Notes under the pieces: model-generated
Databases searched by the model: none
What the model was told of the DNA's origin: nothing
What the model saw: only the letters and a program-made list of their open reading frames with translations
Made by a program: the position numbers and the translations under genes
Shown: positions 3,049-36,500 of the stretch, piece by piece
Layout of the letters: each line of letters begins with the position of its first letter
Position numbering within the stretch: position 1 is the first letter of the stretch
Virus record (IMG/VR): IMGVR_UViG_3300030106_005509
Coordinates: 1 to 64,000 of that record
Origin: a virus
Length of the DNA: 64,000 bases
Reading direction: 5' to 3' (one strand)

Positions 3049-3814
3049 AAAAATAGTTGTTGCTGGAATGCATAGGACAGGACATCACCCTATTGCAGTA
3101 TGGCTACTACACCAACAGAAAAACATATACGATTTTTCTATCAATACCATTGCCCCTTGGCTATTCCAAGTCCAAACAGATGATGGAACAAGTATTCTCG
3201 CTAACAATCCTCTTAAGCGAGGCCCGGAAGAACACACAGACAAACTGAAGTTTGATGATATCATAGCCGACATATCACCAAATAGGCTTATACTAACGCA
3301 TGAACAAGAGAAAATCTCTCAGGTAGCGTTATCTTGCGCACACTCTAGTGCGGTATCGGGTTCTAACATCAAACCAGAGATAGTAATTATACTACGTGAC
3401 TTTAAAAACTGGCTTGCCAGCTGTATAAAGATGTCACAAAGAGATAATAAACCAATAGAACAAATAGTAAACGATACAAAAGTAGAAAACTACATAGATC
3501 ACTTTAAGTACGTAAACAACGAAGAAACCCCCACACACCACATTCTCTATAACCAATGGGTTACTGATATAAATTACAGAGCAGAGATATGTGACAAGCT
3601 GGGTCTTAAGTTTACCGACGCCGCTATCAACCAACTATCTATATTTGGAGGCGGTAGCTCCTTTGACGGTATGAAGTATATAAAAACCGCTTGGGAGATG
3701 GATGTTAATACCAGATACAAAACAATGGAGTATGATCAAACATACCAAACACTATTACAAAAATATAAACATGTACTAGATATAAGTAACGAGGTATTCG
3801 GTAAACAAATATGA
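3041..3814 (+). CDS. Sulfotransferase-like protein
   Basis: The 257-residue product has the two hallmarks of the PAPS-dependent sulfotransferase fold. A P-loop-like 5'-phosphosulfate site lies at residues 5-20 (IVVAGMHRTGHHPIAV), and a 3'-phosphate site at 114-130 (IVIILRDFKNWLASCIK), where R119 and S127 would contact the 3'-phosphate. It would transfer sulfate from PAPS to a sugar or protein acceptor in the cytoplasm. The usual PxTGST wording of the first loop is altered to MHRTGHH, so a related P-loop kinase or glycosyl-linked function is possible. It overlaps both neighbours by a few bases and directly precedes GDP-mannose dehydratase, which points to carbohydrate modification. Confidence 0.6.
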   Translation: MTKKIVVAGMHRTGHHPIAVWLLHQQKNIYDFSINTIAPWLFQVQTDDGTSILANNPLKRGPEEHTDKLKFDDIIADISPNRLILTHEQEKISQVALSCAHSSAVSGSNIKPEIVIILRDFKNWLASCIKMSQRDNKPIEQIVNDTKVENYIDHFKYVNNEETPTHHILYNQWVTDINYRAEICDKLGLKFTDAAINQLSIFGGGSSFDGMKYIKTAWEMDVNTRYKTMEYDQTYQTLLQKYKHVLDISNEVFGKQI

Positions 3815-4860
3815 AAAGAGCAATTATATACGGGGTAACAGGACAAGACGGATCATACCTTTCTGAATTCCTACTTAATAAGGGATACAAGGTATATGGT
3901 GTTACACGAAGATCAAGTGTAGACAACACTGCCAGATTGCACATTTCTTTAACAAATAAACGTTTCGAGCTGGTTCAAGGCGATGTCACAGACATGTCTA
4001 GTATCTACCGGTTATTGAGCAACGTCCAACCACACGAAGTGTATAACCTAGCTGCTCAATCTCATGTGGGTACTTCCTTTGAACAACCAACTAATACTTG
4101 GAATGTGGTTGCTCAAGGTTGCATGAACATTCTAGAAACGATCAGGAGCATGTCGAAGCGTCCTCGTTTCTATCAAGCAAGCTCTAGCGAGATGTTTGGC
4201 GATAGCTTTGAGTGTGATGACTCAGATTGCTTAGAAGCCTATCAGGACGAGTATACGGTGTTTAATCCGCAGTCTCCCTACGCAGTGGCTAAGCTGGCCG
4301 CACATCAAGCTACAACGCTCTACAGGAACTCCTACGACATCTTCGCGTGTTCTGGCATATTGTTTAACCATGAGAGCGAAAGACGCGGAGAGAACTTCGT
4401 GACGCGCAAGGTGACGAAGTATATAGCTAAACTACATCAGGCATTGAATGAAGAGGGTGATATACCTATTTTAAGTCTAGGCAATCTTAATGTGGAACGG
4501 GATTGGGGCTATGCACCAGAATACGTAGAAGCCATGTGGCTCATGCTACAACAGGAGAATCCTGACGATTTTGTTATATCTACAGGAGAGACTTGGACTA
4601 TAGAAGACTTTGTAATAGAAGCATTTAGGTGTATAGATATATATGAGTACACAGATTATGTAAAAATAGATGAAAAACTGCGTAGACCTTCTGAAGTTTA
4701 TTATTTGAGGGGTAAAAGTGATAAGGCTAAGGAGCTACTTGGGTGGAGTCCTAAAGTAAGTTTTGAGCAGTTAGTAAAAATAATGGTGGATCATGATATA
4801 CAAGGTGGTTATGGATACGTCGAAGATCAGCTCTCTTATGGAGAGGTTTGGAATAAATGA
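3811..4860 (+). CDS. gmd: GDP-mannose 4,6-dehydratase
   Basis: The 349-residue protein is an extended short-chain dehydrogenase/reductase. GVTGQDG (8-14) is the NADP-binding glycine motif. SSSEMFG (124-130) and SPYAVAK (155-161) hold the catalytic Ser/Glu and the Tyr157/Lys161 pair. NHESERRGENFVTRKVT is a segment characteristic of GDP-mannose dehydratases. It converts GDP-mannose to GDP-4-keto-6-deoxymannose, the precursor of GDP-fucose, GDP-rhamnose and perosamine. Compared with bacterial enzymes there is a cysteine-containing insertion of about ten residues after EMFG. No fucose synthase or later pathway enzyme is visible, so the product probably feeds a host pathway or a phage glycosyltransferase outside the window. 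It sits in an operon with a sulfotransferase-like gene. Confidence 0.9.
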   Translation: MKRAIIYGVTGQDGSYLSEFLLNKGYKVYGVTRRSSVDNTARLHISLTNKRFELVQGDVTDMSSIYRLLSNVQPHEVYNLAAQSHVGTSFEQPTNTWNVVAQGCMNILETIRSMSKRPRFYQASSSEMFGDSFECDDSDCLEAYQDEYTVFNPQSPYAVAKLAAHQATTLYRNSYDIFACSGILFNHESERRGENFVTRKVTKYIAKLHQALNEEGDIPILSLGNLNVERDWGYAPEYVEAMWLMLQQENPDDFVISTGETWTIEDFVIEAFRCIDIYEYTDYVKIDEKLRRPSEVYYLRGKSDKAKELLGWSPKVSFEQLVKIMVDHDIQGGYGYVEDQLSYGEVWNK

Positions 4861-5319: not shown

Positions 5320-5797
5320 ATACATAATATTAAGAGACACGAGAGAGAAGAACGGCTGGACTTTTCAATCGTTTGACCGCTGCAAAGCCGTGAAAGACTG
5401 GGGTTTGAAGACCGGCGACTACACGGCGAGAGGATTGGAAAAGAGCCTAGTAATTGAGCGCAAGGCCAGCACAGGCGAATTGGCTATGAATTTAGGGCAA
5501 AAGAGGAAGCCGTTTGAAGCAGAAATGGAGCGTATGTCTAATTTCCGATGGGCATACATAGTATGTGAGTTCTCGATTGACGACATTATGTCGTTCCCTG
5601 AGAACTCAGGAATACCAAAAAAGAGATGGCAGTACATGAGGATGAACGGAAAGTTTATATGGCGGAGAGTTAGGGAGTTGGAGGAAAAATATAACGTGGT
5701 GTTTCTATTCTGCGAAAACAAAGTGGATGCCGAAGAAAGAGTGTTTAGGATTTTTGATGAAGTTACGGAGATACTAATTCGTGAACAAGTCAGTTAA
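5309..5797 (+). CDS. ERCC4/XPF-family nuclease
   Basis: The 162-residue product shows the ERCC4 nuclease signature: ILRDTREKNGW (7-17) with D10 and E13, GDY (36-38), the catalytic VIERKAS (48-54), and an F-x-x-E-M-E-R-M helix (69-76). This family cuts structured DNA such as flaps and branches with metal ions. Family members normally work with a helix-hairpin-helix partner, which is missing here, so the protein is nuclease-only, as in several phage versions. It sits between an HNH nuclease and the large terminase, overlapping the terminase by 17 bases, so resolving branched replicating DNA before packaging is a sensible inferred role. Confidence 0.75.
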   Translation: MRSEYIILRDTREKNGWTFQSFDRCKAVKDWGLKTGDYTARGLEKSLVIERKASTGELAMNLGQKRKPFEAEMERMSNFRWAYIVCEFSIDDIMSFPENSGIPKKRWQYMRMNGKFIWRRVRELEEKYNVVFLFCENKVDAEERVFRIFDEVTEILIREQVS

Positions 5798-7745
5798 TAC
5801 ACTTAAAATATTAGAAGATGCATGGCTGAATCTAGACCAAGACAGCTCGAATATTGTAAATCCATTTGCAATTGAAACTGAAGAAGAGTTTCATATAAAG
5901 TTAACTTGGCTTTTGGCAAATCCAGAATACTTCTCTTTTATATGTAAACACATATTTAATGTAGAAATATTACCCTCGCAAGCTCTTTTCTTGCAAGAAA
6001 TGTGGTATAGAAAATTCCCAATGCTTATCGCTAGTCGTGGTTTTGGTAAGTCTTTCATACTATCTCTATATTCTATGCTTAGGGCTTTGCTAATGCCCGG
6101 AAGAAAGATAGTCATCGTTGGTGCTGCTTTCCGTCAATCTAAAGTTCTTTTTGAGTACATGGACACGATATGGCGAAATGCACCACTCTTAAGAGATATA
6201 GCCGGTGGCAATAGTGGACCGCGTAAAGATGTTGATATGTGCAGAATGATCATAGGCGACAGCACGGTAACATGCTTGCCTCTTGGCGATGGAAGTAAAA
6301 TTCGTGGTCAACGTGCTAATGACATTGTGGCTGATGAATTTGCATCTATACCTCGTGCAATTTTTGAAAACGTTGTAGCAGGTTTTGCTGCTGTATCAGC
6401 TTCACCGATAGAAAATGTCAAACGGATAGCGGCGGAAAAACAAGCTAAATCAAAAGGTATCCAATTAGATGATACTAGAGATGAGATGACCAAGCGCGGA
6501 AACCAGATTATTCTTTCTGGTACTGCTTACTATGACTTCAACCACTTTGCCGAATACTGGAAGAAATGGAAACAAATTATAAACAGTAAGGGCGATAAGA
6601 AGAAATTAGGAGAGGTGTTTGGCGAGGATGGAGTTCCTGATGACTTTGACTGGACTGAATATTCTATCATTAGGGTTCCTTTTGAGCTTTTGCCAGAAGG
6701 GTTCATGGATGCCGGTCAGGTAGCTAGATCTAAGGCCACCGTACACGCTGGTATATACCAAATGGAGTTTGGCGCTTGTTTCTCTAGTGATAGTAATGGC
6801 TTTTTCAAAAGATCGCTTATAGAGGCTTCTCCTGAGAATGAAATAAGCCTGCCTAGCGGTGAAGTTAACTTTCATGCCTCGATAAGAGGAAACCCAAAAG
6901 CTAGGTACGTGTATGGGATTGACCCTGCTTCTGAAGTAGACAACTTTTCGATTGTCGTTATGGAGTTGCACGAAGACCACTCAAGGATTGTTTATTGCTG
7001 GACTACCAACAGGTCTGAGCATAAAGAGAAGATAAAAGCGGGAGTTGTAAGCGAAACAGATTTCTATTCTTACTGTGCTAGAAAGATCAGAGACCTAATG
7101 AAGGTATTCCCTTGCGAGGAGATCGCTCTAGACGCTCAGGGTGGCGGTATAGCGATCATGGAGGCTCTACACGACAAGGATAAGATACAAGAGGGAGAGC
7201 TTCCCATATGGCCTACTATAGACGAGAAAAAAGAAAAAGATACCGATGGTCAAGCAGGACTACACATTGTCGAGCTTATACAGTTTGCTAAAGCGGATTG
7301 GGTTGGAGAGGCTAATCATGGGTTAAGAAAGGATTTTGAGGACAAGGTAGTGCTATTCCCCTACTTTGACTCCGCTACCATAGGTTTAGCTATATCCGAC
7401 GACAAACTAAAAAATAGGCTATATGACACGCTAGAGGATTGTGTGATGGAAATAGAAGAGCTTAAGGATGAACTCTCTATGATTATCATGTCACAGACAA
7501 ATTCTGGCAGAGATAAATGGGACACTCCTGAAGTCAAACTTCCGGGAGGAAGAAAAGACCGACTTAGAAAAGACCGTTACTCATCTTTAATTATGGCTAA
7601 CATGTCTGCAAGAAAGATAAGAAGAACCCCAACGCCACAAGAGTATAACGCCGTTGGCGGGTGGGCTGGAAAAACAGTATCTCAAAGTGGAGATGGTTTT
7701 ATAGGCCCTGCTTGGTTTACAGAAGGAATGAAAGATGTGTATTAA
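5781..7745 (+). CDS. terL: Terminase large subunit
   Basis: The 654-residue packaging motor has an ATPase half with Walker A SRGFGKS (85-91) and Walker B DIVADEF (181-187), and a nuclease half with YGIDPASEVDNFSIVV (378-393, D381), ALDAQGGG (449-456, D451) and a further acidic patch near 593-598. It pumps DNA into the prohead through the portal and cuts the concatemer. The start is a GTG at 5781 inside the upstream gene, with GGAG about ten bases before it; no ATG lies near the start of the conserved part. Length is typical of the large terminases of big phages. Portal follows after a promoter. Confidence 0.93.
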   Translation: MNKSVNTLKILEDAWLNLDQDSSNIVNPFAIETEEEFHIKLTWLLANPEYFSFICKHIFNVEILPSQALFLQEMWYRKFPMLIASRGFGKSFILSLYSMLRALLMPGRKIVIVGAAFRQSKVLFEYMDTIWRNAPLLRDIAGGNSGPRKDVDMCRMIIGDSTVTCLPLGDGSKIRGQRANDIVADEFASIPRAIFENVVAGFAAVSASPIENVKRIAAEKQAKSKGIQLDDTRDEMTKRGNQIILSGTAYYDFNHFAEYWKKWKQIINSKGDKKKLGEVFGEDGVPDDFDWTEYSIIRVPFELLPEGFMDAGQVARSKATVHAGIYQMEFGACFSSDSNGFFKRSLIEASPENEISLPSGEVNFHASIRGNPKARYVYGIDPASEVDNFSIVVMELHEDHSRIVYCWTTNRSEHKEKIKAGVVSETDFYSYCARKIRDLMKVFPCEEIALDAQGGGIAIMEALHDKDKIQEGELPIWPTIDEKKEKDTDGQAGLHIVELIQFAKADWVGEANHGLRKDFEDKVVLFPYFDSATIGLAISDDKLKNRLYDTLEDCVMEIEELKDELSMIIMSQTNSGRDKWDTPEVKLPGGRKDRLRKDRYSSLIMANMSARKIRRTPTPQEYNAVGGWAGKTVSQSGDGFIGPAWFTEGMKDVY

Positions 7746-14739: not shown

Positions 14740-16584
14740 ATGACATATTCACCTTTTGGGATTGGTATTGAAACACTAGGTACATCCCAAGTTTCAAAGT
14801 TTGTAAGTGTTGATAGCAATGGCGATCTCATCATACCAGATAGTGACAAATTTAAGTTTGGTACTGGTAGTGATATGCAAGTATATCACGATGGCTCTCA
14901 TGGTTATCTCACAAACGCTACTGGCACTTTAAAACTAGCAACAGAAACAAGTGGTATAGCAATATCAATTGGTCACACCACATCTGAAGTCACTGTTAAT
15001 GATAACTTGACTGTCACAGGTGACCTTACGGTAAATGGTACTACAACTACTATTAACTCAACAACAATGACTGTTGATGATTTAAATATAGTTCTTGCGT
15101 CTGGAGCTTCTGATTCATCTGCTGCTGACGGCGCTGGTATTACAATTGATGGGGCTAGCGCTTCATTGATCTATGACCATACTGGAACTCAGTGGGAGTT
15201 TAATAAAAACGTAGAGTTTGCCGGTAAATTACTTCCAAACGCAGATGCCACCTACGACTTGGGTAGCACGAGTCTTGGTTGGAACGACCTACACATAGGT
15301 TCTGGCGGCGTTATTAACTTCGCTAATGGCGACGTAACAGTAACACACTCTTCAAATACTCTTACCGTAGCTGGCGGAACATTAGCTACAGCAGCTCTCA
15401 CAGCGACCACAGGTACGTTCTCAGGCGTTTTGAAGACCGACGACACTACAGACGCTACAAGCACCACAGACGGCTCTCTACAGACCGATGGCGGTCTTAG
15501 CGTTGCAAAAGATGCTGTTATCGGTGACGACCTTATCTTGTTGTCGGACTCTTCTGTCATTCACTTTGGTGGTGACAAAGAAATTACGCTTAGTCATGTA
15601 GCAGATACGGGTCTTACCCTAAAGCATACAGCTACGGCAGACGACAAACCAGTTACGCTTACTCTTGCTACTGGCGAAACCGACATAGCTGCTAACGATG
15701 TCATTGGTATTATTAACTTCCAAGCTCCAGACGAAGGTACTGGAACAGACGCTATCTTAGTAGCTGCTGGAATTGCTGCTGTTTCAGAAGGTGATTTCGC
15801 AAACGATAATAATGCTACGAAGCTCAGTTTCAGAACAGCGGCTAGTGAAGCAGCTTCTGAAAAGATGTCTCTATCTAGTGGTGGTAATCTTACAGTCGCT
15901 GGTGACATTACTGTTTCTGGTAGTGACATTATACTTGATGATGGTGGATCTCTTAAAGAGGGTGGTGGTACTGCTGCCTTTACCTTTGATGGAAGTGGTC
16001 ACGTTACCAAGATCGGTCAAGATAGCCCATCTAATGGCGAATTCTTGAAATACGACGGTAGTAAATGGGTAGCAGCCGCAGCTACTGTTAGCAGTCTTGC
16101 TGCTGATGATATTAGTGCTGGTGACGCCGCTATAAATCTTACTACAACTAGTGGAAATATCACTATAGACGCTCAAGATGGCGACTCAGACATTATCTTC
16201 AAGGGTACTGATGGAAGTAGTGACACAACGTTCTTAACACTTGATGGTAGTGATGCTGGAGCTGCTATATTTAACAGCACTGTAAAGGGTAGTGTCTTTA
16301 TTGACTCAGTAGAAATTATAACAAACGATGCCGTTACTGTAAGTAAAGGCTTCACTGGAGTTACTACTGGCGGATCGACTAGAGTCGCTACCTTACCAGC
16401 AGCTGTTTCAGGCAATGTTGGTGCAATGTACACCATTAAAAAGCTAGACAGCGGATCTGGTAGTGTGCAGGTTGCTAGAGCTGGCAGTGACACAATTGAT
16501 GGAGGAACTAGTGTTGTTCTTTACCATCAGCACGAAAGTGTAACTGTTATTGTTGGAGCTGCTTCTACTTGGTACATCATGTAA
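14740..16584 (+). CDS. Large fibre protein A
   Basis: The 614-residue protein is Thr/Ser/Gly/Asp-rich with short strands. It includes NDNLTVTGDLTVNGTTTTIN (around 87-106), a triple-helix type of sequence seen in trimeric phage fibres, and ADATYDLGSTSLGWNDLHIG. A module at about 325-390 (NDVIGIINFQAPDEG to LSSGGNLTVAGDI) is repeated at the N-terminus of the next gene. The C-terminal domain matches the short protein at 14070. Weak promoter-like TATA material lies in the gap before it. It probably forms a long trimeric fibre for host recognition. Whether it is attached to tail or capsid cannot be told; the genes sit directly behind the capsid gene. Confidence 0.72.
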   Translation: MTYSPFGIGIETLGTSQVSKFVSVDSNGDLIIPDSDKFKFGTGSDMQVYHDGSHGYLTNATGTLKLATETSGIAISIGHTTSEVTVNDNLTVTGDLTVNGTTTTINSTTMTVDDLNIVLASGASDSSAADGAGITIDGASASLIYDHTGTQWEFNKNVEFAGKLLPNADATYDLGSTSLGWNDLHIGSGGVINFANGDVTVTHSSNTLTVAGGTLATAALTATTGTFSGVLKTDDTTDATSTTDGSLQTDGGLSVAKDAVIGDDLILLSDSSVIHFGGDKEITLSHVADTGLTLKHTATADDKPVTLTLATGETDIAANDVIGIINFQAPDEGTGTDAILVAAGIAAVSEGDFANDNNATKLSFRTAASEAASEKMSLSSGGNLTVAGDITVSGSDIILDDGGSLKEGGGTAAFTFDGSGHVTKIGQDSPSNGEFLKYDGSKWVAAAATVSSLAADDISAGDAAINLTTTSGNITIDAQDGDSDIIFKGTDGSSDTTFLTLDGSDAGAAIFNSTVKGSVFIDSVEIITNDAVTVSKGFTGVTTGGSTRVATLPAAVSGNVGAMYTIKKLDSGSGSVQVARAGSDTIDGGTSVVLYHQHESVTVIVGAASTWYIM

Positions 16585-16602
16585 TTTTAGGAGTTTTTGG
16601 TA

Positions 16603-18270
16603 ATGGCGCATTCAATCACGTTACAAAACCTATCAGATACTGATATTATCAATAATGACATATTAGGTCAAATTTGTTTTGCTGCACCTAACGAGGCTGG
16701 AGGAACCGACTCAATATTAGTATCGGCCTCTATATTCGCTAGATCAGAAGGCACTTTTGCTGCTGATAATAATGCTACTGAGTTGGTTTTTGTAACCGCC
16801 GCTAGTGAATCTGCCTCTCCCGGAGCGACTAATTATGATATGACCTTAAGCTCTGGTGGAAATCTTACTTTAGCTGGCAATCTAGAACTCGGACACGCGA
16901 GTGATACTACGATAGCAAGAAGTAGTGCTGGAGTAATAACAGTAGAGGGAACAGAGGTTATTTTGGCCGGTGCGGTCACTGCGATAACCTCTCTCCTTGC
17001 TACTGATATTAAGATTGGTGAGGACGCCCAAACAGCAATTGATTTTGAAACTGCTAATGAAATTCATTTTGACGCTGATAATGCTGAAAGAGTAAAAATA
17101 GATTCTAATGGATTAACCATGACTAGTGGTGATATCTATACCGACAAAATTAGGCGAGCCTCAGATAGTAGTACTACTACAAAAATACTTCTTAATGATG
17201 AGGTATTAAAGCTATACGCCGGTCATTCATCAAACAATATCTGCACGATAGACTCTACCGGATTAACTATTGACAATGGTAGCTTGGAGACGGCTACTAT
17301 TGATTATACTGATGGCGATAATGCAATGACCATCGCTGATGGTGGTAAAGTTACATTTGCCGCAGGATTTGCTGTAGGTTCAGATGCGGCTGGAGACATT
17401 CTTTATCATAATGGCACTAGCTATGTTAGGCTTGGCATAGGATCTGATGGTCAAGTGTTGACTGTCAACGATGCCGGAAACGCACCTCAGTGGGAAAATG
17501 CTTCTGGCGGTGGTAGTGGTGATATAACAGGAGTAACCTTAGCTGGAGACTCTGGTTCTGCTGCCGACACTTCAGGAAATGCAGACATTACTATCGCTGG
17601 TGGTAATGGCATAACTACTTCAGGTAGTAGTGCTACTTTGACTGTCGCTCTTGATGCAGCTCTAACTACAGTCACTTCTTTGTTAGCCTCAAATATTAAA
17701 ATTGGTGAAGATGATCAGACAAAGATTGATTTTGAAACCGCAGATGAAATTCACTTTTACGCTGCCAATGTAGAGCAGGTATATCTTGCAGATAACATTT
17801 TTGGTCCACAGTCTGACAGTGATGTTGACTTGGGAAGTAATAGCGTAAGGTGGAAAGATGCTTATATTGACAGTATAACCACCACGGGTAAGATAACTGC
17901 CGGTGGTTCTATTAATCAAGGTATTACAAGCGCTACCGAAGATGCTACAGTCGTTATAGACCTAAGTTCTGGTAACTATTTTAATATAACTTTAGGCGCA
18001 AACGTATCAGACATAGATTTTACCAATGGAACAGATGGTCAAAGATTTTTAATTAGATTTACTCAGCCCGGAGGTGCTAACTATAGTATCGCCTATAATG
18101 CTGTCACTCATGACCAAGATGGTGGTGGAAGTCCTGCCAGCGTTACAATTAAATGGGCTGGAGGAATAACACACACTATGACTAGAACAAATGCAAAGGC
18201 TGATACTGTAGGATTTATTATTAATGATGAAAATGCATTTGATGGGTTTATAGTAGGACAAAATCTATAA
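16603..18270 (+). CDS. Large fibre protein B, paralogue of fibre A
   Basis: The start at 16603 is set by TTAGGAG (16587-16593), nine bases upstream; the TTG at 16597 has no such support. The 555-residue protein begins with a module similar to the middle of fibre A (NNDILGQICFAAPNEAGGTD to LSSGGNLTLAGNL). It contains two copies of an internal segment, TSLLATDIKIGEDAQTAIDF and TSLLASNIKIGEDDQTKIDF. A knob-like C-terminus contains FLIRFTQPGGANYSIAY and ends DGFIVGQNL. It is probably a trimeric fibre. The shared modules could recombine to exchange tips. It overlaps the next gene by one base. Confidence 0.72.
   Translation: MAHSITLQNLSDTDIINNDILGQICFAAPNEAGGTDSILVSASIFARSEGTFAADNNATELVFVTAASESASPGATNYDMTLSSGGNLTLAGNLELGHASDTTIARSSAGVITVEGTEVILAGAVTAITSLLATDIKIGEDAQTAIDFETANEIHFDADNAERVKIDSNGLTMTSGDIYTDKIRRASDSSTTTKILLNDEVLKLYAGHSSNNICTIDSTGLTIDNGSLETATIDYTDGDNAMTIADGGKVTFAAGFAVGSDAAGDILYHNGTSYVRLGIGSDGQVLTVNDAGNAPQWENASGGGSGDITGVTLAGDSGSAADTSGNADITIAGGNGITTSGSSATLTVALDAALTTVTSLLASNIKIGEDDQTKIDFETADEIHFYAANVEQVYLADNIFGPQSDSDVDLGSNSVRWKDAYIDSITTTGKITAGGSINQGITSATEDATVVIDLSSGNYFNITLGANVSDIDFTNGTDGQRFLIRFTQPGGANYSIAYNAVTHDQDGGGSPASVTIKWAGGITHTMTRTNAKADTVGFIINDENAFDGFIVGQNL
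16975..17094 (+). repeat. Internal fibre repeat, copy 1
   Basis: This coding segment specifies TAITSLLATDIKIGEDAQTA followed by IDFETANEIHFDADN. The same segment recurs about 690 bases later in the same gene. The copies differ at several codons, so the duplication is not recent. Confidence 0.7.
17668..17781 (+). repeat. Internal fibre repeat, copy 2
   Basis: This segment specifies TTVTSLLASNIKIGEDDQTK followed by IDFETADEIHFYAAN and matches copy 1 at 16975-17094. It lies closer to the C-terminal knob of fibre B. Confidence 0.7.
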
Positions 18271-18677
18271 TGGCAAGAAACACAGTAGAGGTAGTAAGCG
18301 ATAAAGCAGTAAGTAGTTGTTCGGGGTCTGGACCTAGCTACACCATCAATTATTCAGCAAAAGTTACTTGGGATCCCGGCGATGCCGGTCCTCCCGCCAT
18401 ACCTGTTCAGGTTGGAGATAATGTCACTGCTTATAAGATGACAGCTGGAGATGGAGCGCATGGAGATGGAGGAACTGATGTCTCTACTTACACATACCTT
18501 GTCACAGGAATAACAGACGGAGATACATTAACACTTAAATATATTACTGATAGTAATGGGGATGGAGATGACTCTCCTTGTGACCTACCTTCTGGAACAG
18601 GAAGTTCAGCATCTCCTAATAAAGCTCCACATGACTTCACAAGAGATTTAGGACCAGCTTTTAATTTGTTTTTATAA
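18270..18677 (+). CDS. Small beta-rich virion protein, 135 aa
   Basis: The start overlaps the end of fibre B by one base (TAATGG). The product is rich in Gly, Thr, Ser and Asp (VEVVSDKAVSSCSGSGPSYT near the start), with a middle that could be an immunoglobulin-like sandwich (VGDNVTAYKMTAGDG, VTGITDGDTLTLKYI) and a Pro/Ser/Gly-rich end. No enzymatic motif is seen. As it is coupled to a fibre gene it may be an adaptor, a fibre tip or a small chaperone-like partner. Confidence 0.55.
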   Translation: MARNTVEVVSDKAVSSCSGSGPSYTINYSAKVTWDPGDAGPPAIPVQVGDNVTAYKMTAGDGAHGDGGTDVSTYTYLVTGITDGDTLTLKYITDSNGDGDDSPCDLPSGTGSSASPNKAPHDFTRDLGPAFNLFL

Positions 18678-18686
18678 GAGAGAATT

Positions 18687-19748
18687 ATGGACAGATGTCA
18701 GTGCGAGTCGTGGGGATTTTGCTCGTTTTTCCAGCAAGAGATGACTTACGAACCTCCTAACTGGCAGTGGTGTCAAAACGCCACACCAGAAGAAAGAAAA
18801 AAATACAAGATAGCAGTTGAGAAGAAACATAAAAGAAGAGCTACTGGGCCTTGGTGTTATCCAGACAACCTAAGTATTAGATTTTCTACGGTGTCTTCTT
18901 TAGTTGACGACATAAAAAAACACCTACTACCGAAACTTGCAAAGCTAGAAATAAAAGGGGTGGTTGGTATTCCAAGATCTGGAATGTTACCAGCAACTCT
19001 GTGTGCTTTGTGGCTAAACGTACCTATGTATTCAGTTGCGGAGGACGGAAGCTTGCATTTAATGTCAAATGCTTCAGGCTTTGGCGGCTTGAGGATGTCC
19101 AAGTTTAAGGAGAGACAGGGCGATATTCTTTTGATAGACGACACGCTTTCAAGCGGTGGTTCTATGAAAGAGGCTTTGGAAAGCATAAAGACAGACGAAA
19201 AGATAATAACATGCGCTGTTTATGCTAACCCTAAAAACATTGAAAAGATAGACGTTTACGGTATTGATTTGCATCATCCATACATATTGGATTGGTGCTT
19301 TTTTAATACGTCGTACATGGAAAAAAGCTATTTAGACTTTGATGGAATTCTTTCACCAGATGTTCCTTCAAACATAGCAAACGACGAGAGTAAGTATGTT
19401 GAATATATAGCTAACGTAGCACCTATACAGTATAGACTTCCTCGTCTTTATAAGATCAAAGGGATAGTAACAGCGAGATTAGAAAAATACAGAAAGGTGA
19501 CAGAGTGGTGGCTTGACAAGCATGAAATAGAATATGAAGAGCTTCACATGTTTCCAACAGAAAGACAGCAAGAAAGGGACGCAAACCATATAGAAGAGTC
19601 TTCCAGTTTTAAGTCTGACATATACAAAAAAAGCGATGCTTTTATTTTTGTTGAGAGTCACAAATTAGAAGCAAAGAAGATACACGAGAAGTCGGGTAAA
19701 GTTGTTATATGTCCTGATGATGAAAGGATATGGGTAAAACGTGACTAG
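18687..19748 (+). CDS. Phosphoribosyltransferase-HAD phosphatase fusion
   Basis: The 353-residue protein joins two enzyme domains. Residues about 60-185 form a type I phosphoribosyltransferase, with GVVGIPRSG (91-99) and the PRPP loop ILLIDDTLSSGGSM (147-160). Residues about 210-350 look like a HAD hydrolase, with DFDGIL (217-222) as motif I, GIVTARLEKYR (259-269) as motif II and a late KSDAFIFVESH region for the last motifs. The N-terminus (1-55) is Cys/Trp-rich and may bind metal. Transfer or removal of phosphoribosyl or phosphate groups on a small molecule is expected; the substrate is unknown. It opens the sugar-chemistry gene group within the fibre island and overlaps the sulfotransferase by eight bases. 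Confidence 0.75.
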   Translation: MDRCQCESWGFCSFFQQEMTYEPPNWQWCQNATPEERKKYKIAVEKKHKRRATGPWCYPDNLSIRFSTVSSLVDDIKKHLLPKLAKLEIKGVVGIPRSGMLPATLCALWLNVPMYSVAEDGSLHLMSNASGFGGLRMSKFKERQGDILLIDDTLSSGGSMKEALESIKTDEKIITCAVYANPKNIEKIDVYGIDLHHPYILDWCFFNTSYMEKSYLDFDGILSPDVPSNIANDESKYVEYIANVAPIQYRLPRLYKIKGIVTARLEKYRKVTEWWLDKHEIEYEELHMFPTERQQERDANHIEESSSFKSDIYKKSDAFIFVESHKLEAKKIHEKSGKVVICPDDERIWVKRD

Positions 19749-20340
19749 TGTTATAATCCCGTTTTCTAGTTCTAGATTTATTCATGTACCAAAGACCGGC
19801 GGAACTTGGGCATTAGAAGCCATGAGTTCAATAGGTTTAAAGTATGAGGTTATAAATCCAAGAAAAGATATAAGAGGTGGTCATACTGGATTTTACTACA
19901 AGCAACGAGGAGCATTTTCCTTTGGGTTTGTTAGAAATCCTTTTGACTGGTACAAGTCATTTTATAAGTTTAATAAAGGTCTTAGCTCTAGAACAAAAGG
20001 GCAACTAGGTATAAAAAGATGGAATCTAGAAGACATAAATGAGTTTGTCTTTGATTCGATTGAAAATGGACATAATCTGTCTGAGCAGTTAAGGTACTTT
20101 TTTGGACATTTTTACGAAATAAGTTTTATAGGTAAATATGAAAACCTATGCGAGGATTTGATAAAAGCTCTTTATTTATCTGGAGAGTTTTTTGACGTTG
20201 GTTATGAGGATACTATAAGAGAGTTTAGCAATACTATTGTTAACTCTAGTGAAGGTTTGGAATGCGGAGAATACTCGACAGAAGCAAAGAATGCAATATT
20301 TAGAGCGGACAGAAAAATATTCAGAAGATTTGATTATTAA
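19741..20340 (+). CDS. Sulfotransferase
   Basis: The 199-residue protein has a clear sulfotransferase signature. FIHVPKTGGTWALEAM (13-28) is the 5'-phosphosulfate loop, and FGFVRNPFDWYKSFYKF (61-77) carries the 3'-phosphate site with R65 and S73. This wording is typical of the carbohydrate sulfotransferase group (Sulfotransfer_2). It would move sulfate from host PAPS to a sugar hydroxyl. The start is a GTG at 19741 inside the previous gene. At about 200 residues it is short for the family but retains the core. It is co-translated with the methyltransferase that follows, so a sulfated and methylated glycan is a plausible product. Confidence 0.85.
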   Translation: MTSVIIPFSSSRFIHVPKTGGTWALEAMSSIGLKYEVINPRKDIRGGHTGFYYKQRGAFSFGFVRNPFDWYKSFYKFNKGLSSRTKGQLGIKRWNLEDINEFVFDSIENGHNLSEQLRYFFGHFYEISFIGKYENLCEDLIKALYLSGEFFDVGYEDTIREFSNTIVNSSEGLECGEYSTEAKNAIFRADRKIFRRFDY

Positions 20341-20906
20341 TGGACAAAATTAAAATAGCACAGACAAGAGAAGAGCTGTACTTATCAATACCTAAAGGTG
20401 GCGTAGGGGCAGAGCTTGGTGTTTGCAAAGGTTCAAATGCCGCGATACTCTTCCAATACACAAAGCCTACGAAGATGTACTTGGTTGATATATGGACTGA
20501 GTCATGTCCCGATGGTCAGGAGTGGCATCCACAGCTTATACCAAGCTACGGGAATCATTATGAAATGGTTGCGGACATCTTCTCAGAAGAAATTACTTTA
20601 GGAAGAGCTGAACTTATAAAAGATTATAGTACTGAGTTTTTGTGTGATCTACAGGATAATTCTCTGGACTGGGTTTATTTAGATTCAAATCACGATTATG
20701 AAGTTGTGTCTGCCGAGATAGAAATTTCACTACTAAAAGTAAAGAGTGGTGGATATATCATGGGTCATGATTACTGCAATTTTATGGAGAACACTTGGGG
20801 AACCTCAGTTGTAAGAGCTGTAAACGAGAGGATTCAAAACGGGGACATATTCATGGAAGCTATAAGTGAAGACACATGGCCTTCTTATTTATGCAGAGTT
20901 TTGTAA
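20340..20906 (+). CDS. Class I SAM-dependent methyltransferase
   Basis: The 188-residue protein shows the Rossmann methyltransferase order: GAELGVCKGSNA (23-34) for SAM binding, YLVDIW (47-52) with the ribose-binding acid, DWVYLDSNHDY (110-120) as motif IV/post-I, and GGYIMGHDYC as the later strand. It resembles the Methyltransf_24 group found in sugar and antibiotic clusters. Methylation of a glycan attached to the host surface or the virion is inferred from its neighbours, a sulfotransferase and a WavE-like protein. It overlaps the preceding gene by one base, and the next gene starts directly after its stop. Confidence 0.8.
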   Translation: MDKIKIAQTREELYLSIPKGGVGAELGVCKGSNAAILFQYTKPTKMYLVDIWTESCPDGQEWHPQLIPSYGNHYEMVADIFSEEITLGRAELIKDYSTEFLCDLQDNSLDWVYLDSNHDYEVVSAEIEISLLKVKSGGYIMGHDYCNFMENTWGTSVVRAVNERIQNGDIFMEAISEDTWPSYLCRVL

Positions 20907-21698
20907 ATGGAAGTAACTTTTGTAATACAAGGACCAATTACTTGTGAAACAATGAAAACAGTAGAGGTCTGTAGGAAGTATGGAGAAGTTATAGTGTCCT
21001 GTTGGGATAACGATTGTCCAAGATTAATAAAAAAACTTAGCAAGCAAGTTAAGGTGGTCAAGAATAAGTTTTTTAACCCTAAAGGATACAACTTTCAAAA
21101 CATACAATATCATATAGCAACATTTTTACAAGGTGTTAAAGAAGCAAAAACAGAGTATGTAATAAAAATAAGATCTGACGAATACTTTACTGATATGTCT
21201 AAATTGATAGAAACTGTCAGCAAAAATAAAGATAAGATTACAACTTGTAATTTTTTATTTAGACCAGATGTATTGTTTCATCCATCGGATCATATTATAG
21301 CAGGAAAAAAGAAAAGCTTGTTTGCGATGCTTATATGGAGTATGGATTTTATAAAAAAATTTAAAGAAGACAAACCTGTTAGTGTAAAAAAAATAGGTTT
21401 AAAAAGCGATCTTTTTTATAAGGATGTAACAGCAGAACTTACATTTTGCATATCCTACCTAAAAGGAAAAGGTATTGATATTATCAACGACATTAAAGAT
21501 ATGGATAATGACGAACTTAAAAAATACCACAAAAAAATAATCAACAATCATTATGCTTTAATCAGAGCTTCAGATATGGGAAATTTTTTGCTCAGATTTA
21601 AAGGAAACCCGGATATAACAGGACCAACGGCATTTACGAATGAACAGGACTTTTTAAATTACGAGTTACCTTCGATAAAATCAATGAAAGAGTTATAA
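20907..21698 (+). CDS. WavE-like glycosyltransferase/polysaccharide protein
   Basis: The 263-residue protein opens MEVTFVIQGPITCETMKTVE. The IQGPI motif (7-11) and the later YVIKIRSDEYF (84-94) are characteristic of the WavE family of lipopolysaccharide core biosynthesis proteins, which have a nucleotide-sugar transferase fold. R89/S90/D91 would lie at the nucleotide-binding site. The gene starts immediately after the methyltransferase stop and ends directly before the next start. Codons are noticeably more AT-rich than in the flanking fibre genes, suggesting separate acquisition. It would transfer a sugar to a surface glycan; donor and acceptor are unknown. Confidence 0.72.
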   Translation: MEVTFVIQGPITCETMKTVEVCRKYGEVIVSCWDNDCPRLIKKLSKQVKVVKNKFFNPKGYNFQNIQYHIATFLQGVKEAKTEYVIKIRSDEYFTDMSKLIETVSKNKDKITTCNFLFRPDVLFHPSDHIIAGKKKSLFAMLIWSMDFIKKFKEDKPVSVKKIGLKSDLFYKDVTAELTFCISYLKGKGIDIINDIKDMDNDELKKYHKKIINNHYALIRASDMGNFLLRFKGNPDITGPTAFTNEQDFLNYELPSIKSMKEL

Positions 21699-22277
21699 AT
21701 GCTCGGTTTTAATTCAATAAGTTCTAATCCATTCTCAGCAGTGTCAGTTACGGCTTCGAGTAATGCTGTCGCAAAGATAGTCGTTGGACCTGCTTTTAGT
21801 AGGGGTTTTGATATAGGCTTCGAGAGAGGCCCAACACTTATTGCTACAGCCACTATAACTCAAGAAGTTTTACACTCTAGCCTACACCTTTCTGCCACTG
21901 GTACTGTGGAGAAGTTAGGCGTGACTAATATTCCGGTTATTGTAAGCGCTGCTTTTAACTGGGCTGATACCGCTTACCTTCAAAGTCAGGCAAGTTTATC
22001 CGCAAATAGTGTATTATTATTAGGAGGGGTAGCTGATATAACTTTCCCCTCTACGATATCTGCCAAGCTTACGAATGCGTTTGACAACTCAGATATCGTT
22101 GACCTGACTTTATATTTAGACAAACAAATGGACTTGTCTGCGTATATAGAAAAAATGCCAGAACTAGCACTTTATTTAGACAAACAAAAGCCGGTTGATT
22201 TGTATATAGATAAAATTATTAACAAATCTCAATACATAAATAAGCAGTCAAGCTTTGATTTGATGAGAGAGAGATAA
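21699..22277 (+). CDS. Repeat-containing structural protein
   Basis: The 192-residue protein has an N-terminal half of alternating small and hydrophobic residues (SVTASSNAVAKIVVG, later SAAFNWADTAYLQSQASL). The C-terminal half holds about five short repeats of the form L/A-Y-L/I-D/E/N-K at 10-12 residue spacing, as in LYLDKQ, AYIEKM, LYLDKQ, LYIDKI and QYINKQ. Such regular strand repeats point to a beta-prism or solenoid in an elongated virion protein. A related strand-repeat style ends the LamG protein at 46813. No enzyme motif is present. It directly follows the sugar-modifying genes. Confidence 0.6.
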   Translation: MLGFNSISSNPFSAVSVTASSNAVAKIVVGPAFSRGFDIGFERGPTLIATATITQEVLHSSLHLSATGTVEKLGVTNIPVIVSAAFNWADTAYLQSQASLSANSVLLLGGVADITFPSTISAKLTNAFDNSDIVDLTLYLDKQMDLSAYIEKMPELALYLDKQKPVDLYIDKIINKSQYINKQSSFDLMRER

Positions 22278-22601: not shown

Positions 22602-23111
22602 ATGGCTTGGCAAAATGAAATGAGTATAATTGTTCGTCACTTGATCAATGATCTTGACTCATCTAGTTACACATTTACAGATAGTAGATTAGAAGAAAGC
22701 ATACTAGTAGCTGCTCAGTTAGTACTAATTGAAATAGATTTTGATAAGTCATACACGATAGACGTAGATGCAGCTTCAATATCACCAGACCCAACAACAT
22801 CCGGCGACAAAGACAACTCATTTATAAATCTAGTTTCACTAAAAACCGGCACTATACTACTTGGTAGTGAGCTTAAAACACACTCGCTAAATGCTATTGC
22901 ACTCAAAGATGGCCCTTCCTCCTTAGATCTAAGAGGAATAGTAAGTAGTCTAAAAATACTTTTTGATGACATAAATAAAAAGTATGAAGATGCAAAAGTA
23001 GAGTTCAAGATGAACGGTATTGTAGGCCAAGCTATACTCGGCCCATACTCACCGGGTAGCGATGGTGTCGCCAGAATGCACTTAGGTAGAAGATCAGGAT
23101 ACTTTGAATAA
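22602..23111 (+). CDS. Putative head-tail connector protein
   Basis: The 169-residue protein begins with a helical part (MSIIVRHLINDLDSSSYTFT, then DSRLEESILVAAQLVLIEID). It continues with strands and a loop ending GQAILGPYSPGSDGVARMHL. The opening, a short helix followed by a -D-x-x-x-x-x-F-T-D-x-x-L-E-E-x-I pattern, is common in head-tail connector adaptors of siphoviruses. It is separated from the other neck candidates by fibre genes, which makes the assignment less secure. It shares its last base with the first base of the S74 fibre gene. Confidence 0.45.
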   Translation: MAWQNEMSIIVRHLINDLDSSSYTFTDSRLEESILVAAQLVLIEIDFDKSYTIDVDAASISPDPTTSGDKDNSFINLVSLKTGTILLGSELKTHSLNAIALKDGPSSLDLRGIVSSLKILFDDINKKYEDAKVEFKMNGIVGQAILGPYSPGSDGVARMHLGRRSGYFE

Positions 23112-25384
23112 TGGCAGAATATACACAAAATTCACTTAAATCAAAAATAGATGCTGACCTAGCTGATAATCAAGCTGGAGGTATCACAGCAGAAACATTA
23201 AGAACCACCCTGAAGCACATGGTGGATTCTGTTATACCAATTTCTGCTAGTGGCTCTGATATATATTTTATAAACGACATTGACATTAGAGATAATGGCG
23301 TTGCGATAGCAGATCAAAATATAGGAACCATAAAATCTCAATGGAATAACAATGACGTTTCATCTATAAACTTTTTCTCAGGCTCTGATACCACAAACAA
23401 AGACGATGGATACATAGTATTCAAAACTGCTGCGTCTGGAGTCTCTTCGACCACAGGTGGAGAAAGCTTGGTAAAAAGACTTGAGATAAGTAAATCCGGC
23501 CAAACCTTGATTTATGGTAGCGGAAATACACTCCCAAGTATGGAAATAAGAAGTATTAATGCTTCTGGTGTTAATATCCTACTGGAAAAATCTGTTGGCA
23601 ACCTAGCTGTGCCTACAAATCAGTCTTTCTATGCAGGGCATTGGGACTCCTCAACATCTTCCTTCACACCTAGAATTGCTTTCAATACTAACGGTAGGTT
23701 TGGTGTTGGTACTACCTATCCACAAAGCCAGATACATGTAAGTGCTTCTGGTGCAGCGATGAGGGTTGATTCGGAGGTTGATTCCAATGACTATGCATCT
23801 ATAAAGATAAACAAATATAAAACTAACTCATCTACGTATGACTCAAACAATCTTAATGTAGGCTTTGGTCTTGGTGTCGCCAGTGCTGCCAGTGGTGTTG
23901 GTTACTTTTTTGTAGCTAGAGATACCAATAGAAATGATGCAGTTAGAGCCAGCGAATCACTCATGGTGGTTGATAGTGGCGGCCATGTTGGTATAGGCAC
24001 TAGATATCCAAAAGAAAGACTAGAGGTTGGGGATAGTCTTGGTAAGATCACTGCTAGTGGAGATGGTCATGCAGTATCAATATCTTCAAAGACAGGCGAT
24101 TCTCATCTTTATATAGGTTCTGGTGACGGTAGAGCTTACCTCTCAAATTATGCAGATATAAGATGGGAAGGCGATAATCACAGACTAGTTATAGATACAA
24201 AAAGCGCTCAAGTACCCAGAGCGCAATCGTTTGTTATTGACTCAACAAATGGCAACATTGGAGTAGGCCATTCAGGAATAAGCGTTGAACACACTTGGAG
24301 ACCAAACCATAACTTCCATGTCTCTGGAAGCGGAACTCCAACAACCTTAACGCTTGAAAACTCTCTCAATACAAACACAGCAATACACATAGGTAAGAAT
24401 ACAGATGGTAGCGGCATATTAACTTATGCGTCTACTGATAATGAAAAGGGTCATTGGGCCACTATAGGTTATAAGTCTTCTAACTCCTCTTTGAAGATCA
24501 ATAACTCAGGATCCTTTGTTCCTTCTCATTTAACTATTGATAGAAGAGGAAATGTTGGTATTAATACCGACTCTCCATATCATTCTACTGTTCTAGGCAA
24601 GGACAGGTTGCATGTTTATGGTGAAAATACCTCGATGATTATTGGAGACCCATTTGGTGGAAGCAACTCAGCTCTAAGATTTGTTGGTTCTAGATCAACA
24701 AACAACACTGCTTACATACAAGCGGGAACTAGTGCCGCAGACACAAATGCAAAACTAAACATAACTAGATTTGATGCGGAAGGCAGTAACCTTCACAAGA
24801 TGGAGGTCTATGCAGATTCTACTAAATTCCGTGGATCTGGCGTGTTTAACGAAGTTAGTGTACAAGGCAACATATTGCTAAACGATAACTGGTTAAGTAA
24901 CGACGGAGGAAATGAAGGTATAAAAATAACAGACGACGGAAAAGTCGGATTGAATACCACTCCTTCATATGAATTACAGTTAAGTAGTAATTCTGCTGCA
25001 AAACCAATAAGTTCTGTATGGACTGTAGTATCAGACCAAAGAGTCAAAACAGATATAAACACCATAGAAGGTGCTTTGGATAAAATAGGCTCATTGAGAC
25101 CAGTCAAATTTAAATATACAGAAAGCTATTGTGATTGTACAGCTGGGGTTACACCTGATAATGACTACTACAACTTTATTGCACAAGAAGTTGAACAACA
25201 TTTTCCAGAGGCTGTTATTAATAGCGGACATGACCTAAAAGATCATGATACACATGAAGTGATTGTGGAGGATGTAAAATCTCTTGATAACCATATAATT
25301 AATGTTTACCTAGTTGCTGCTGTCAAAGAGCTTAAAGCTGAACTTGATGCGGCTAAACAAAGAATTTCAGAATTAGAATCCTAA
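23111..25384 (+). CDS. Fibre with S74 intramolecular chaperone
   Basis: The 757-residue protein has an attachment-type N-terminus (NSLKSKIDADLADNQAGGIT), many short fibre strands with repeated NVGI.T..P-like turns (GRFGVGTTYPQ, GHVGIGTRYP, GNVGINTDSP), and a C-terminal peptidase S74 domain. SDQRVK (641-646) holds the Ser641/Lys646 dyad. It is followed by LRPVKFKYTE and NFIAQEVEQHFPEAV, the family signature. The domain assembles three fibre chains and then cuts itself off before Ser641, leaving a 640-residue mature fibre. A final helix (VYLVAAVKELKAELDAAKQR) forms the stalk coiled coil. It is very likely a tail fibre or other receptor-binding appendage. Confidence 0.88.
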   Translation: MAEYTQNSLKSKIDADLADNQAGGITAETLRTTLKHMVDSVIPISASGSDIYFINDIDIRDNGVAIADQNIGTIKSQWNNNDVSSINFFSGSDTTNKDDGYIVFKTAASGVSSTTGGESLVKRLEISKSGQTLIYGSGNTLPSMEIRSINASGVNILLEKSVGNLAVPTNQSFYAGHWDSSTSSFTPRIAFNTNGRFGVGTTYPQSQIHVSASGAAMRVDSEVDSNDYASIKINKYKTNSSTYDSNNLNVGFGLGVASAASGVGYFFVARDTNRNDAVRASESLMVVDSGGHVGIGTRYPKERLEVGDSLGKITASGDGHAVSISSKTGDSHLYIGSGDGRAYLSNYADIRWEGDNHRLVIDTKSAQVPRAQSFVIDSTNGNIGVGHSGISVEHTWRPNHNFHVSGSGTPTTLTLENSLNTNTAIHIGKNTDGSGILTYASTDNEKGHWATIGYKSSNSSLKINNSGSFVPSHLTIDRRGNVGINTDSPYHSTVLGKDRLHVYGENTSMIIGDPFGGSNSALRFVGSRSTNNTAYIQAGTSAADTNAKLNITRFDAEGSNLHKMEVYADSTKFRGSGVFNEVSVQGNILLNDNWLSNDGGNEGIKITDDGKVGLNTTPSYELQLSSNSAAKPISSVWTVVSDQRVKTDINTIEGALDKIGSLRPVKFKYTESYCDCTAGVTPDNDYYNFIAQEVEQHFPEAVINSGHDLKDHDTHEVIVEDVKSLDNHIINVYLVAAVKELKAELDAAKQRISELES

Positions 25385-25614: not shown

Positions 25615-25911
25615 ATGACAGCTGTTCCTAATTTTTTAACAGGTAGAAAGAGTAGCATTGGAACCACTGCGCTTCAATTAACTACTAATACCACCAAAGC
25701 TGACAGAGGTGTTCAGGTTACAGCGGCTGCTGGTAACTCTGCAACTATATATGTCGGTTTACATAACGTAACAGCGGACTCAGCAGATGATACCGATGGT
25801 TTCCCATTGGCAGCTGGAGAGTCCATACTAGTTCCTGTCAGAGATGCGACAAAAATATATGTCGTAGCTTCTAGCGGTTCTAGTAGTAAAGTATTTTTCA
25901 TGCTTGTATAG
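25615..25911 (+). CDS. Small jelly-roll-like virion protein, 98 aa
   Basis: The 98-residue product is an all-beta small protein (QLTTNTTKADRGVQVTAAAG, then ATIYVGLHNV, FPLAAGESILVPV, KIYVVASSGSS and KVFFMLV). Proteins of this style occur next to fibre and head-fibre genes in many phages and are probably virion parts. AAGGA precedes the start. No enzyme motif is seen and the family is not characterised to my knowledge. Confidence 0.55.
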   Translation: MTAVPNFLTGRKSSIGTTALQLTTNTTKADRGVQVTAAAGNSATIYVGLHNVTADSADDTDGFPLAAGESILVPVRDATKIYVVASSGSSSKVFFMLV

Positions 25912-33559: not shown

Positions 33560-36500
33560 ATGGCTAAACCGTTTGTATTAACAACACAACTACAGATACA
33601 GATACCAAACCTTAACCAAGTTGTCAGTCAGCTTAACAAGGGGTTAGGTAATGTAAATGTTCCTGTTAATATTAATATACCTAAAAATGCCAACACTCAG
33701 CTTACTAATTTAAACAAAAACGTCAAGAACGCTGGAGCCTCTGCTCGCGGTGCAGCAAAAAACTTTGACTCCATGAGAAACTCTCTTAGGGGTGCGCTTA
33801 CTTATATAGCTAAGTACGACGCCGCTAGAGAGATTTTCAATCTATTTGCACAAACACTTAGAGATGGTGTTTCTTCTGCAATAGCTTTTGAAAAAGAAAT
33901 GGTTAAGGTCAGTCAAGTTACTGGTCAAACCATGAAACAATTAAGGGGTTTGGAGCGAGAGATAACCAGAGTTTCTACAGGCTTTGGGGTCTCTTCAGGA
34001 TCTTTAATTAAAACCTCTAGGGTATTAGCTCAGACTGGTATGTCTGCTAGAGATGCTAGGATAGCTCTTGAAGCCCTCGCTAAAACAACTCTGGCCGCTA
34101 CGTTTGACGATATTACATCTACCACAGAAACCGCCATTGCTGCAATGAGGCAGTTTGGTATAGCCTCGACAGACTTAGAAAAGACGCTTGGTAAAATTAA
34201 CTCCTTAGCAGCTAACTTTGCTGTTGAGGCTGGTGATATCGGCGTAGCCATCAGGCGTGCTGGTGGTGCGTTCAAAGCTGCCGGTGGAAGTCTTGATGAA
34301 CTTAATGCTCTCTTCACCGCTGTTCGTTCTACCACTCGTGAAACAGCGGAAACTATTGCTACTGGTTTTAGAACTATCTTTACCAGAATACAAAGACCAA
34401 AAACTATACAGTTCTTAAAACAGTTAGGTATAGAACTGCAAAATGTAGAAGGTCAGTTCGTAGGACCGTTTGAGGCTGTAAGAAAATTAAATATAGCTCT
34501 TAAAAGTCTAGACCCCAAAGACGTTAGATACTCACAGATCATTGAACAGCTTGGTGGTTTCAGGCAGGTCTCTAAAGTTATACCACTTATTCAACAATTT
34601 GGTCAGGCACAGAAAGCCCTAAATGTATCTCAGCAAGGTGGTACTAGTCTTGCTAGAGACGCTGCAAAAGCACAACAGAGTCTTGCAGTCCAGTTGACAA
34701 AGGTCAAAGAAGAATACATGGCTCTGTTTAGAGAGATATTTGGCGGTCAAGGAATGCAAACCGTCATAAAGACCACGCTTAAACTAGCCTCCGCTTTCGC
34801 TAGAGTTGTAGATTCTCTTTCTCCTATAATACCTCTTATTGCAACTATAGGTGCTGCCAAGTTAGGTCAGTTTGCTCTCTTTGGAAGTCTTGGCAGAGGT
34901 AGAAAACAGGGAGGTAGAATAAATAGGTTTGCTACTGGTGGTATGGTTCCCGGAAAAGGAAATAGCGATAGCGTTCCTGCCATGCTTACTCCCGGAGAGT
35001 TTGTAATACGTAAAAGTTCTGTAAGAACAATTGGCGCCAACCGTTTGCAAAAGATGAACAGATACGGTAACGGCGGAACTGTAGAAAGAGGTCAAGTACA
35101 ACGAGTCGCCAACAGAAAAGCTTCTCTAAAAAATAAATATGATATTGGCGAAGGTGGTATTCACGATAAATACAGAGCCAAATTGACAATTAAAACTTTC
35201 GACCCCAATGATAAAGAGGTGGGTCGCAAAGCTATTGAAGCCGAAGCAAAAGAAGCAAAAGCATATGGTCAAAAAAGATATCAAGCCCTTCTTAAAACCA
35301 GTGGGGATGAAAAGAGGTCTGCGATAAGAGCTGGTGCTTTGATGCGGAAAAGATTTGGTCTTTCAGGATTCATAGGTAAAAGGACAAGTGGTCAATCTAA
35401 ATTTTTTACGTCTAAAACTCCAAGACAATCACAAGGTGTTACGAACAACCTCGTGGGAGGAATCCATGAAAGAAATGTAAGTGGATGGGCAAAGAAAAAT
35501 TACAAGAGCGCAAGAGTTGGTAAGCTTCCAGACGCAGACGGAATGGATTTTAGAGTTGGTAACAGCGGCGTTCTCATCGAAGCGAAGAGCCTAAAGAGAA
35601 AATTAAATAGAGACGAGATCATAGCAAAAGGTTTACTCGCTAAAGCCGTCAGTAAAAACTATCAAGACAAAGTTTCGCAAGATGTTAATTTAAAAGAACT
35701 TGTATATGCTGAAGCGCCAGCGAGCCTGAAAAAATCTGGGTTTACCAAGAGGAATAGAGGAGGAGGCATATCATCAACAGATACAGTTCCCGCACTCCTT
35801 ACTCCCGGCGAATTCGTAATCAATAGAAAGTCCGCAGCTAAGATTGGTTACGGCAACCTTAACAATGCAAATAGATTTGGTAAAACACCTAAAGGATTTG
35901 CTGCTGGTGGAATAGTAGGCGTACAGAAATTCAATAACGGTGGAGAAGCAAGAAGTCCCCGTCTTGGTTTAGGCGTTTTTGTTGCACTACAAACAATATT
36001 GCCACAGTTAGCAGAAGCTTTTAAATCAGCCGATGGAGAAGTTACCGATCTTTCTATGGGGCTTGACGCGGCAAGCCAAGGCTTGATGACATTTGCTACA
36101 TTGAGCTTTGCTACTGGTGATTTGCTAGAAGGTTTTGGTGGCAAAGTAAAGTTTGCTGCAACAGGCTTATTGGCTGTAGGGGCAGCTGCATTTGCTGCTT
36201 ATCAGTATGAAAAACAAAGAGGGATGGAGAGAGAGAAGCGTGCTGTTAAAAACCTTGAAGAAGGAGGTTTTCAATCTGAAACGCGAACAGCAGGTCTTAG
36301 GCGTCAATTCATAGACGCTAGGAGGCAACAAACTGAGGGTGCTGGCGGAGCTGCTGGTCGTGTAGCTGGAGCTGCTGGTGGCGCTTATGCTGGAATGAAA
36401 GCTGGAGCATTAATAGGAGGATTGACTCCAGCTGGCCCAGTTGGTGCTTTGGTTGGAGGTATACTTGGAGCTATAGGAGGAGGTATCGCTGGATATTTTG

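Follow-up and report, generated by a model that had tools for sequence, protein, structure and literature searches.

A recurrent cassette in the tail module

The first 64 kb of the 136,411-base IMG/VR virus record IMGVR_UViG_3300030106_005509 (this stretch is the window; the record is labelled G000) contain four genes that we read, tentatively and with slightly less than even confidence, as an accessory glycan-tailoring cassette of the phage tail module, the acceptor being most likely a glycan of the virion fibre or baseplate. The genes encode a phosphoribosyltransferase fused to a HAD phosphatase (PRTase-HAD), a sulfotransferase of the type using 3'-phosphoadenosine-5'-phosphosulfate (PAPS), an S-adenosylmethionine (SAM)-dependent methyltransferase and a WavE-like protein. 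The cassette is confirmed as a recurrent, non-chance tail-module gene set in related phages.

18687..19748, +, PRTase-HAD fusion, 353 aa, from family and structure matches
19741..20340, +, PAPS-type sulfotransferase, 199 aa, GTG start, 8-bp overlap with the PRTase-HAD gene
20340..20906, +, SAM-dependent methyltransferase (Methyltransf_24), 1-bp overlap with the sulfotransferase gene
20907..21698, +, WavE-like (PF07507) putative glycan-synthesis protein, zero gap after the methyltransferase gene

The next gene begins at 21699, again with zero gap. An earlier note on this DNA had described the four genes as overlapping or abutting between tail-fibre genes, and the coordinates of the open reading frames (ORFs) are exactly as it claimed. 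G000 is a tailed phage with a terminase-like gene at 5781-7745; the sole match of its capsid-like protein in the phage collection is Bacillus phage G, at 23% identity.

Proteins with about 50% identity to PRTase-HAD were found in many IMG/VR contigs. The full-length copies number 38, counting the one in the window and one from a SAR202 metagenome-assembled genome (MAG) contig, and form 28 clusters at 95% identity. A sulfotransferase lies at most 1.6 kb downstream of PRTase-HAD in 23 of these clusters, and a methyltransferase in 14. The four-gene unit of the earlier note therefore holds in part: the PRTase-HAD/sulfotransferase pair is constant, and the methyltransferase and WavE are optional among relatives. 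Sulfotransferase matches occur in 16 of 18 related contigs, the strong ones only at the cassette, with one additional weak match away from it in G002. Cassette genes often overlap, by 1-41 bp, and lie intermixed with tail genes at almost every locus. This conservation of both set and position across many phages supports the claim of a glycan-tailoring gene set inside the tail module. Position and gene overlap also suggest late expression; the numbers of promoters and terminators between 14 and 28 kb showed no excess over shuffles and so say nothing on co-transcription.

Searches of INPHARED with the 14-34 kb region, with PRTase-HAD, with the sulfotransferase and with related queries gave no match. 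The Planctomycete TBK1r (G001) carries three PRTase-HAD copies (L064, L065 and L078) downstream of tail-type genes, and the tape measure beside one of them matched PHROGs at 3e-26. A 152,655-bp contig in the SAR202 MAG (L063, VFHP01000007.1) holds a phage-type cassette and matches L014; it is possibly a hint at the host or a misbinned phage.

The PRTase-HAD protein

Family matches identify both halves of the first protein (PF00156, E 5e-6; PNKP-type HAD phrog_415, 9e-5). A Cys-rich N-terminus (C4, C6, C12, C29 and the motif PPNWQWCQN) precedes a type-I PRTase domain at residues ~61-210, with the pyrophosphate loop PRSG and the phosphoribosyl pyrophosphate (PRPP) motif LLIDDT, and a PNKP-like HAD phosphatase domain at residues ~212-347, with DFDG, T262, K309 and E323. 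In structure comparisons of the AlphaFold2 model (mean pLDDT 84), residues 61-210 best resemble type-I purine PRTases (XGPRT/HGXPRT, Z ~14) and residues 212-347 resemble the T4 Pnkp phosphatase (Z 12.7); a profile search with the HAD domain alone returned Pnkp1 as the sole credible match. Across 16 sequences there is no variation in the acids of the PRPP motif, in the PRSG loop or in the HAD acids, and the HAD DxDG, T, R, K and E are invariant in the phage and Planctomycete relatives. Chains of gPRT/PRP and Bcs3 were absent among the structure matches listed, and the BFVD matches listed were partial, with no full-length PRTase-HAD fusion among them. BFVD also showed similar HAD domains in phage proteins that carry a prohead protease annotation, such as A0A6J5S5M9.

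In two phages PRTase-HAD is fused to a GT8-like glycosyltransferase (GT) domain, in opposite orders: Cys-PRTase-HAD-GT8 in L016 and Cys-GT8-PRTase-HAD in L041. The GT8-like label in these two comes from homologous domains in L019 and L028 together with a likeness read by eye; in L019 the Cys-rich N-terminus stands ahead of GT8 and GT4 domains. The same N-terminal motif, CxC...PPNWQWCQN, heads otherwise differing phage proteins (L017, L019, L046-L062), many of them of glycosyltransferase type.

In bacterial glycans, ribofuranose is known to be introduced by transfer from PRPP and subsequent removal of the phosphate by a HAD phosphatase (PMC10299916, PMC11127046). Because of this precedent, with no claim to membership of those families, we infer that PRTase-HAD would act as a PRPP-dependent ribosylation enzyme that also dephosphorylates its product. 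The earlier note had taken all four genes as of the glycan-building kind; the recurrent glycan partners agree with this, whereas PRTase-HAD taken alone is not a glycan enzyme and owes its assignment to genomic context and to the fusions with the GT8-like domain.

Its folds, matching purine PRTases and the PNKP phosphatase, would also suit an enzyme of nucleic acid modification or one producing a nucleoside-like metabolite, with unrelated accessory genes as neighbours. The PRTase and HAD of Ter systems, including one in a jumbo phage, have been taken as synthesizing nucleoside derivatives (PMC7824862). We consider this improbable here: none of 16 phage records, several of which are fragmentary, contained a TerD gene, and the steady glycan partners and two GT8-like fusions argue for a different substrate.

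The sulfotransferase

By sequence and model, the second gene is a PAPS-type sulfotransferase, with a predicted sulfating activity. It matches phrog_3347 ('Galactose-3-O-sulfotransferase', 1.6e-7), with PF00685 and PF03567 below cut-off, and carries two PAPS-binding motifs, VPKTGGT and VRNPFDWYKS, which we take to be the 5'-phosphosulfate-binding-like loop and the 3'-phosphate-binding-like element, respectively. R65, in the column of the 3'-phosphate-binding Arg, is invariant in the alignment. The profile matched solved sulfotransferases at E 2.6e-6, and each of the 50 VIA-align matches listed is an entry with the sulfotransferase fold, the best at Z 9.0 across 180 residues. Two sulfotransferase subfamilies exist among the related cassettes, linked by one sulfotransferase profile and by phrog_3347. 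The PF00685 scan of the genome missed the window's own gene, and absence of PF00685 elsewhere is accordingly no evidence. The sole viral-contig match to the window sulfotransferase, L001, looked unrelated on inspection.

Variable partners and an apparent natural loss

The methyltransferase and the WavE-like protein were assigned from PF13578 (2.4e-13) and PF07507 (4.5e-10); neither the methyltransferase profile nor the WavE protein found credible solved relatives, and scans of viral contigs with the sulfotransferase, the methyltransferase or WavE singly were uninformative. A WavE paralogue, 33% identical, lies outside the window in G000 (72328-73095, -). Among other cassettes the partners vary: methyltransferase, GT8-like, PS_pyruv_trans (polysaccharide pyruvyl transferase), radical SAM, cytidylyltransferase, epimerase and WavE. 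In the PRTase-HAD tree the same partner sets turn up in different clades, which makes an exchange of cassette partners probable.

One relative appears to have lost the cassette. The flanks of L102 and L027 are 88-92% identical on both sides, and 3.2 kb of L027 are replaced by 15 bp in L102; the missing stretch takes in the greater part of PRTase-HAD together with a GT8-like gene, the sulfotransferase and an epimerase. As the flanking tail genes are intact, the cassette seems to be dispensable for the tail module; a metagenome assembly error is a possible alternative for L102.

Variable and exchanged partners, a possible clean deletion and the AT-rich WavE gene (GC 29.5%) amid its neighbours are also what one would see if the fibre region were a hot spot accepting unrelated small genes that share no common pathway. 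We give this explanation little chance, since PRTase-HAD and the sulfotransferase occur together in 23 of 28 clusters and the partners are glycan enzymes, not random picks.

Virion glycan or host envelope

In the mechanism that we propose, PRTase-HAD would carry out PRPP-dependent ribosylation followed by dephosphorylation, the sulfotransferase would add sulfate from host PAPS, the methyltransferase would methylate, and a sugar would be added or primed by WavE, whose role in other phages would fall to a GT8-like or other GT. The glycan would be made in the cytoplasm as the fibre and baseplate proteins are made. A virion target, which the earlier note had put forward as a possibility, is suggested by position: the cassette genes overlap one another and almost every locus places them within the tail module, the tail-gene settings in TBK1r included.

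The same enzymes might instead finish the lipopolysaccharide (LPS), capsule or exopolysaccharide of the host, as in superinfection exclusion, and lie by the fibre genes since receptor-binding and receptor-altering genes travel together. Much in G000 is compatible with this. A glycan island of about 28 kb with LPS-type genes (33 ORFs; L085, L088) lies outside the window on the minus strand at ~70.3-98.6 kb, beside replication genes. It contains epimerases, the WavE paralogue, a cupin, an aminotransferase-GT2 fusion, GT4-type and GT8 proteins, nucleotidyltransferases, and FkbM and type-24 methyltransferases, as judged from a Pfam scan that covered 19 of the 33 ORFs as well as a DAHP/KDO8P-type synthase encoded at 131867-132631 (L087; PF00793, 3e-69). 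GTs of PF00534 are found in 12 of 15 relatives, the names of WavE and PS_pyruv_trans refer to envelope polysaccharides, and similar islands and GT clusters in other large phages have been read as serving host-surface modification (PMC7824862). The cassette could thus complete a glycan bound for the host envelope. However, it lies in the tail module and not in the island, and at almost every locus it is interspersed with tail genes. By hydropathy, neither the four window proteins nor 34 cassette proteins of other loci are predicted to contain a membrane segment, so that the cassette comes without any predicted membrane protein such as a flippase or ligase; the 33 island ORFs likewise include no clear predicted membrane protein. 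A tyrosine integrase was not found in G000, which leaves lysogenic conversion unsupported. We regard the host envelope as an unlikely target, though a live alternative, and place the virion ahead of it.

Besides the island, several observations weigh against a sulfated virion glycan made by this cassette. The resemblance of the PRTase to purine PRTases and of the HAD to a polynucleotide 3'-phosphatase makes a nucleotide substrate possible; the model of the window sulfotransferase is of moderate quality (pLDDT 72) with weak Foldseek E-values; 5 of the 28 clusters have no detected sulfotransferase (one of them at a contig end); and no adenosine phosphosulfate (APS) kinase scored above cut-off in G000 or ten related contigs, so PAPS would have to come from the host. 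A nucleotide-sugar gene in the window is possibly a source of precursor, scoring 384.8 bits against a cut-off of 415:

3811..4860, +, GDP-mannose 4,6-dehydratase-like gene

The boldest form of the virion reading is doubtful: widespread uncultured phages would cover their tail fibres in a glycan bearing ribose, sulfate and methyl groups and made by enzymes that the fibre region encodes, PRTase-HAD would represent a new type of ribosyltransferase, and the small ORF upstream of it would be the acceptor or scaffold.

Relation to known systems

The closest parallels are gPRT-PRP and the CriT/CrpP domains of Hib Bcs3 (PMC11127046, PMC10299916), which likewise combine a PRPP-type transferase and a HAD in a single polypeptide and are encoded among glycan genes. 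The phage protein differs from them in its type-I PF00156 PRTase, nearest to XGPRT, its PNKP-like HAD, its additional Cys-rich N-terminus and its phage-borne gene beside fibre genes; its activity is predicted. If that prediction is true and the virion is the target, PRTase-HAD would add a type-I PRTase route to ribosylated glycans. A Ter-type PRTase/HAD module differs again, as a TerD-family gene would be expected with it.

In mycobacteriophages, glycans have been observed on capsid and tail-tube proteins (Freeman et al. 2023, cited in PMC12619734). These are particle-protein glycans of the kind proposed here, where the glycan is predicted from genes; the enzyme set of PRTase-HAD and sulfotransferase is particular to our cassette. 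The LPS/capsule clusters of jumbo phages and cyanophages (PMC7824862) also contain many sugar-modifying genes that vary among relatives, and the G000 island is similar to them; the cassette, in contrast, is a small unit of the tail module and includes a sulfotransferase and PRTase-HAD. Gtr-type lysogenic O-antigen conversion employs a membrane flippase and a lipid-linked donor synthase, encoded next to the transferase, unlike these cassettes with their lack of predicted membrane segments.

Phage sulfotransferases are sporadic (phrog_3347), including those of marine OM43 phages, and their role was given as unclear (PMC10580990). The cassette gene is instead tied to one partner and one position at many loci, which provides a sulfotransferase of this kind with a conserved partner and a testable product. 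No sulfated phage glycan was found in the literature, most subscription journals being outside our coverage; if the virion is the target, this would be the first within the literature covered.

Neighbouring genes and the small conserved ORF

The cassette is flanked by the following tail-module genes:

14740..16584, +, upstream tail-fibre-type gene, tail-fibre family match
16597..18270, +, upstream fibre-type structural gene, weak tail-fibre match
18270..18677, +, small conserved fibre-module ORF, 135 aa, nearly confined to the position just upstream of PRTase-HAD
21699..22277, +, downstream structural-module ORF, homologue in L004
22279..22590, +, downstream structural-module ORF, homologues after the cassette in most relatives
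22602..23111, +, downstream structural-module ORF, homologues after the cassette in most relatives
23111..25384, +, tail fibre on the downstream side, carrying a Peptidase_S74 chaperone, tail-fibre family match

The small ORF of the 18270 type is the upstream neighbour of PRTase-HAD in most loci. A homologue of the gene at 25904 takes this place in L016, L023, L037 and L042, and the remaining upstream neighbours are other genes, mostly of the tail module. A search with the small ORF found 27 loci, 23 of which have a full-length PRTase-HAD within 32 bp; two others leave the contig inside PRTase-HAD, one is the remnant in L102, and L095 has a different setting. This association makes the small ORF a candidate partner or acceptor of the cassette.

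Further along the tail region, the window contains a 4,413-aa ORF (33560-46801) and, at 46813-49290, a protein with a lectin-like Laminin_G_3 domain (PF13385, 1e-10).
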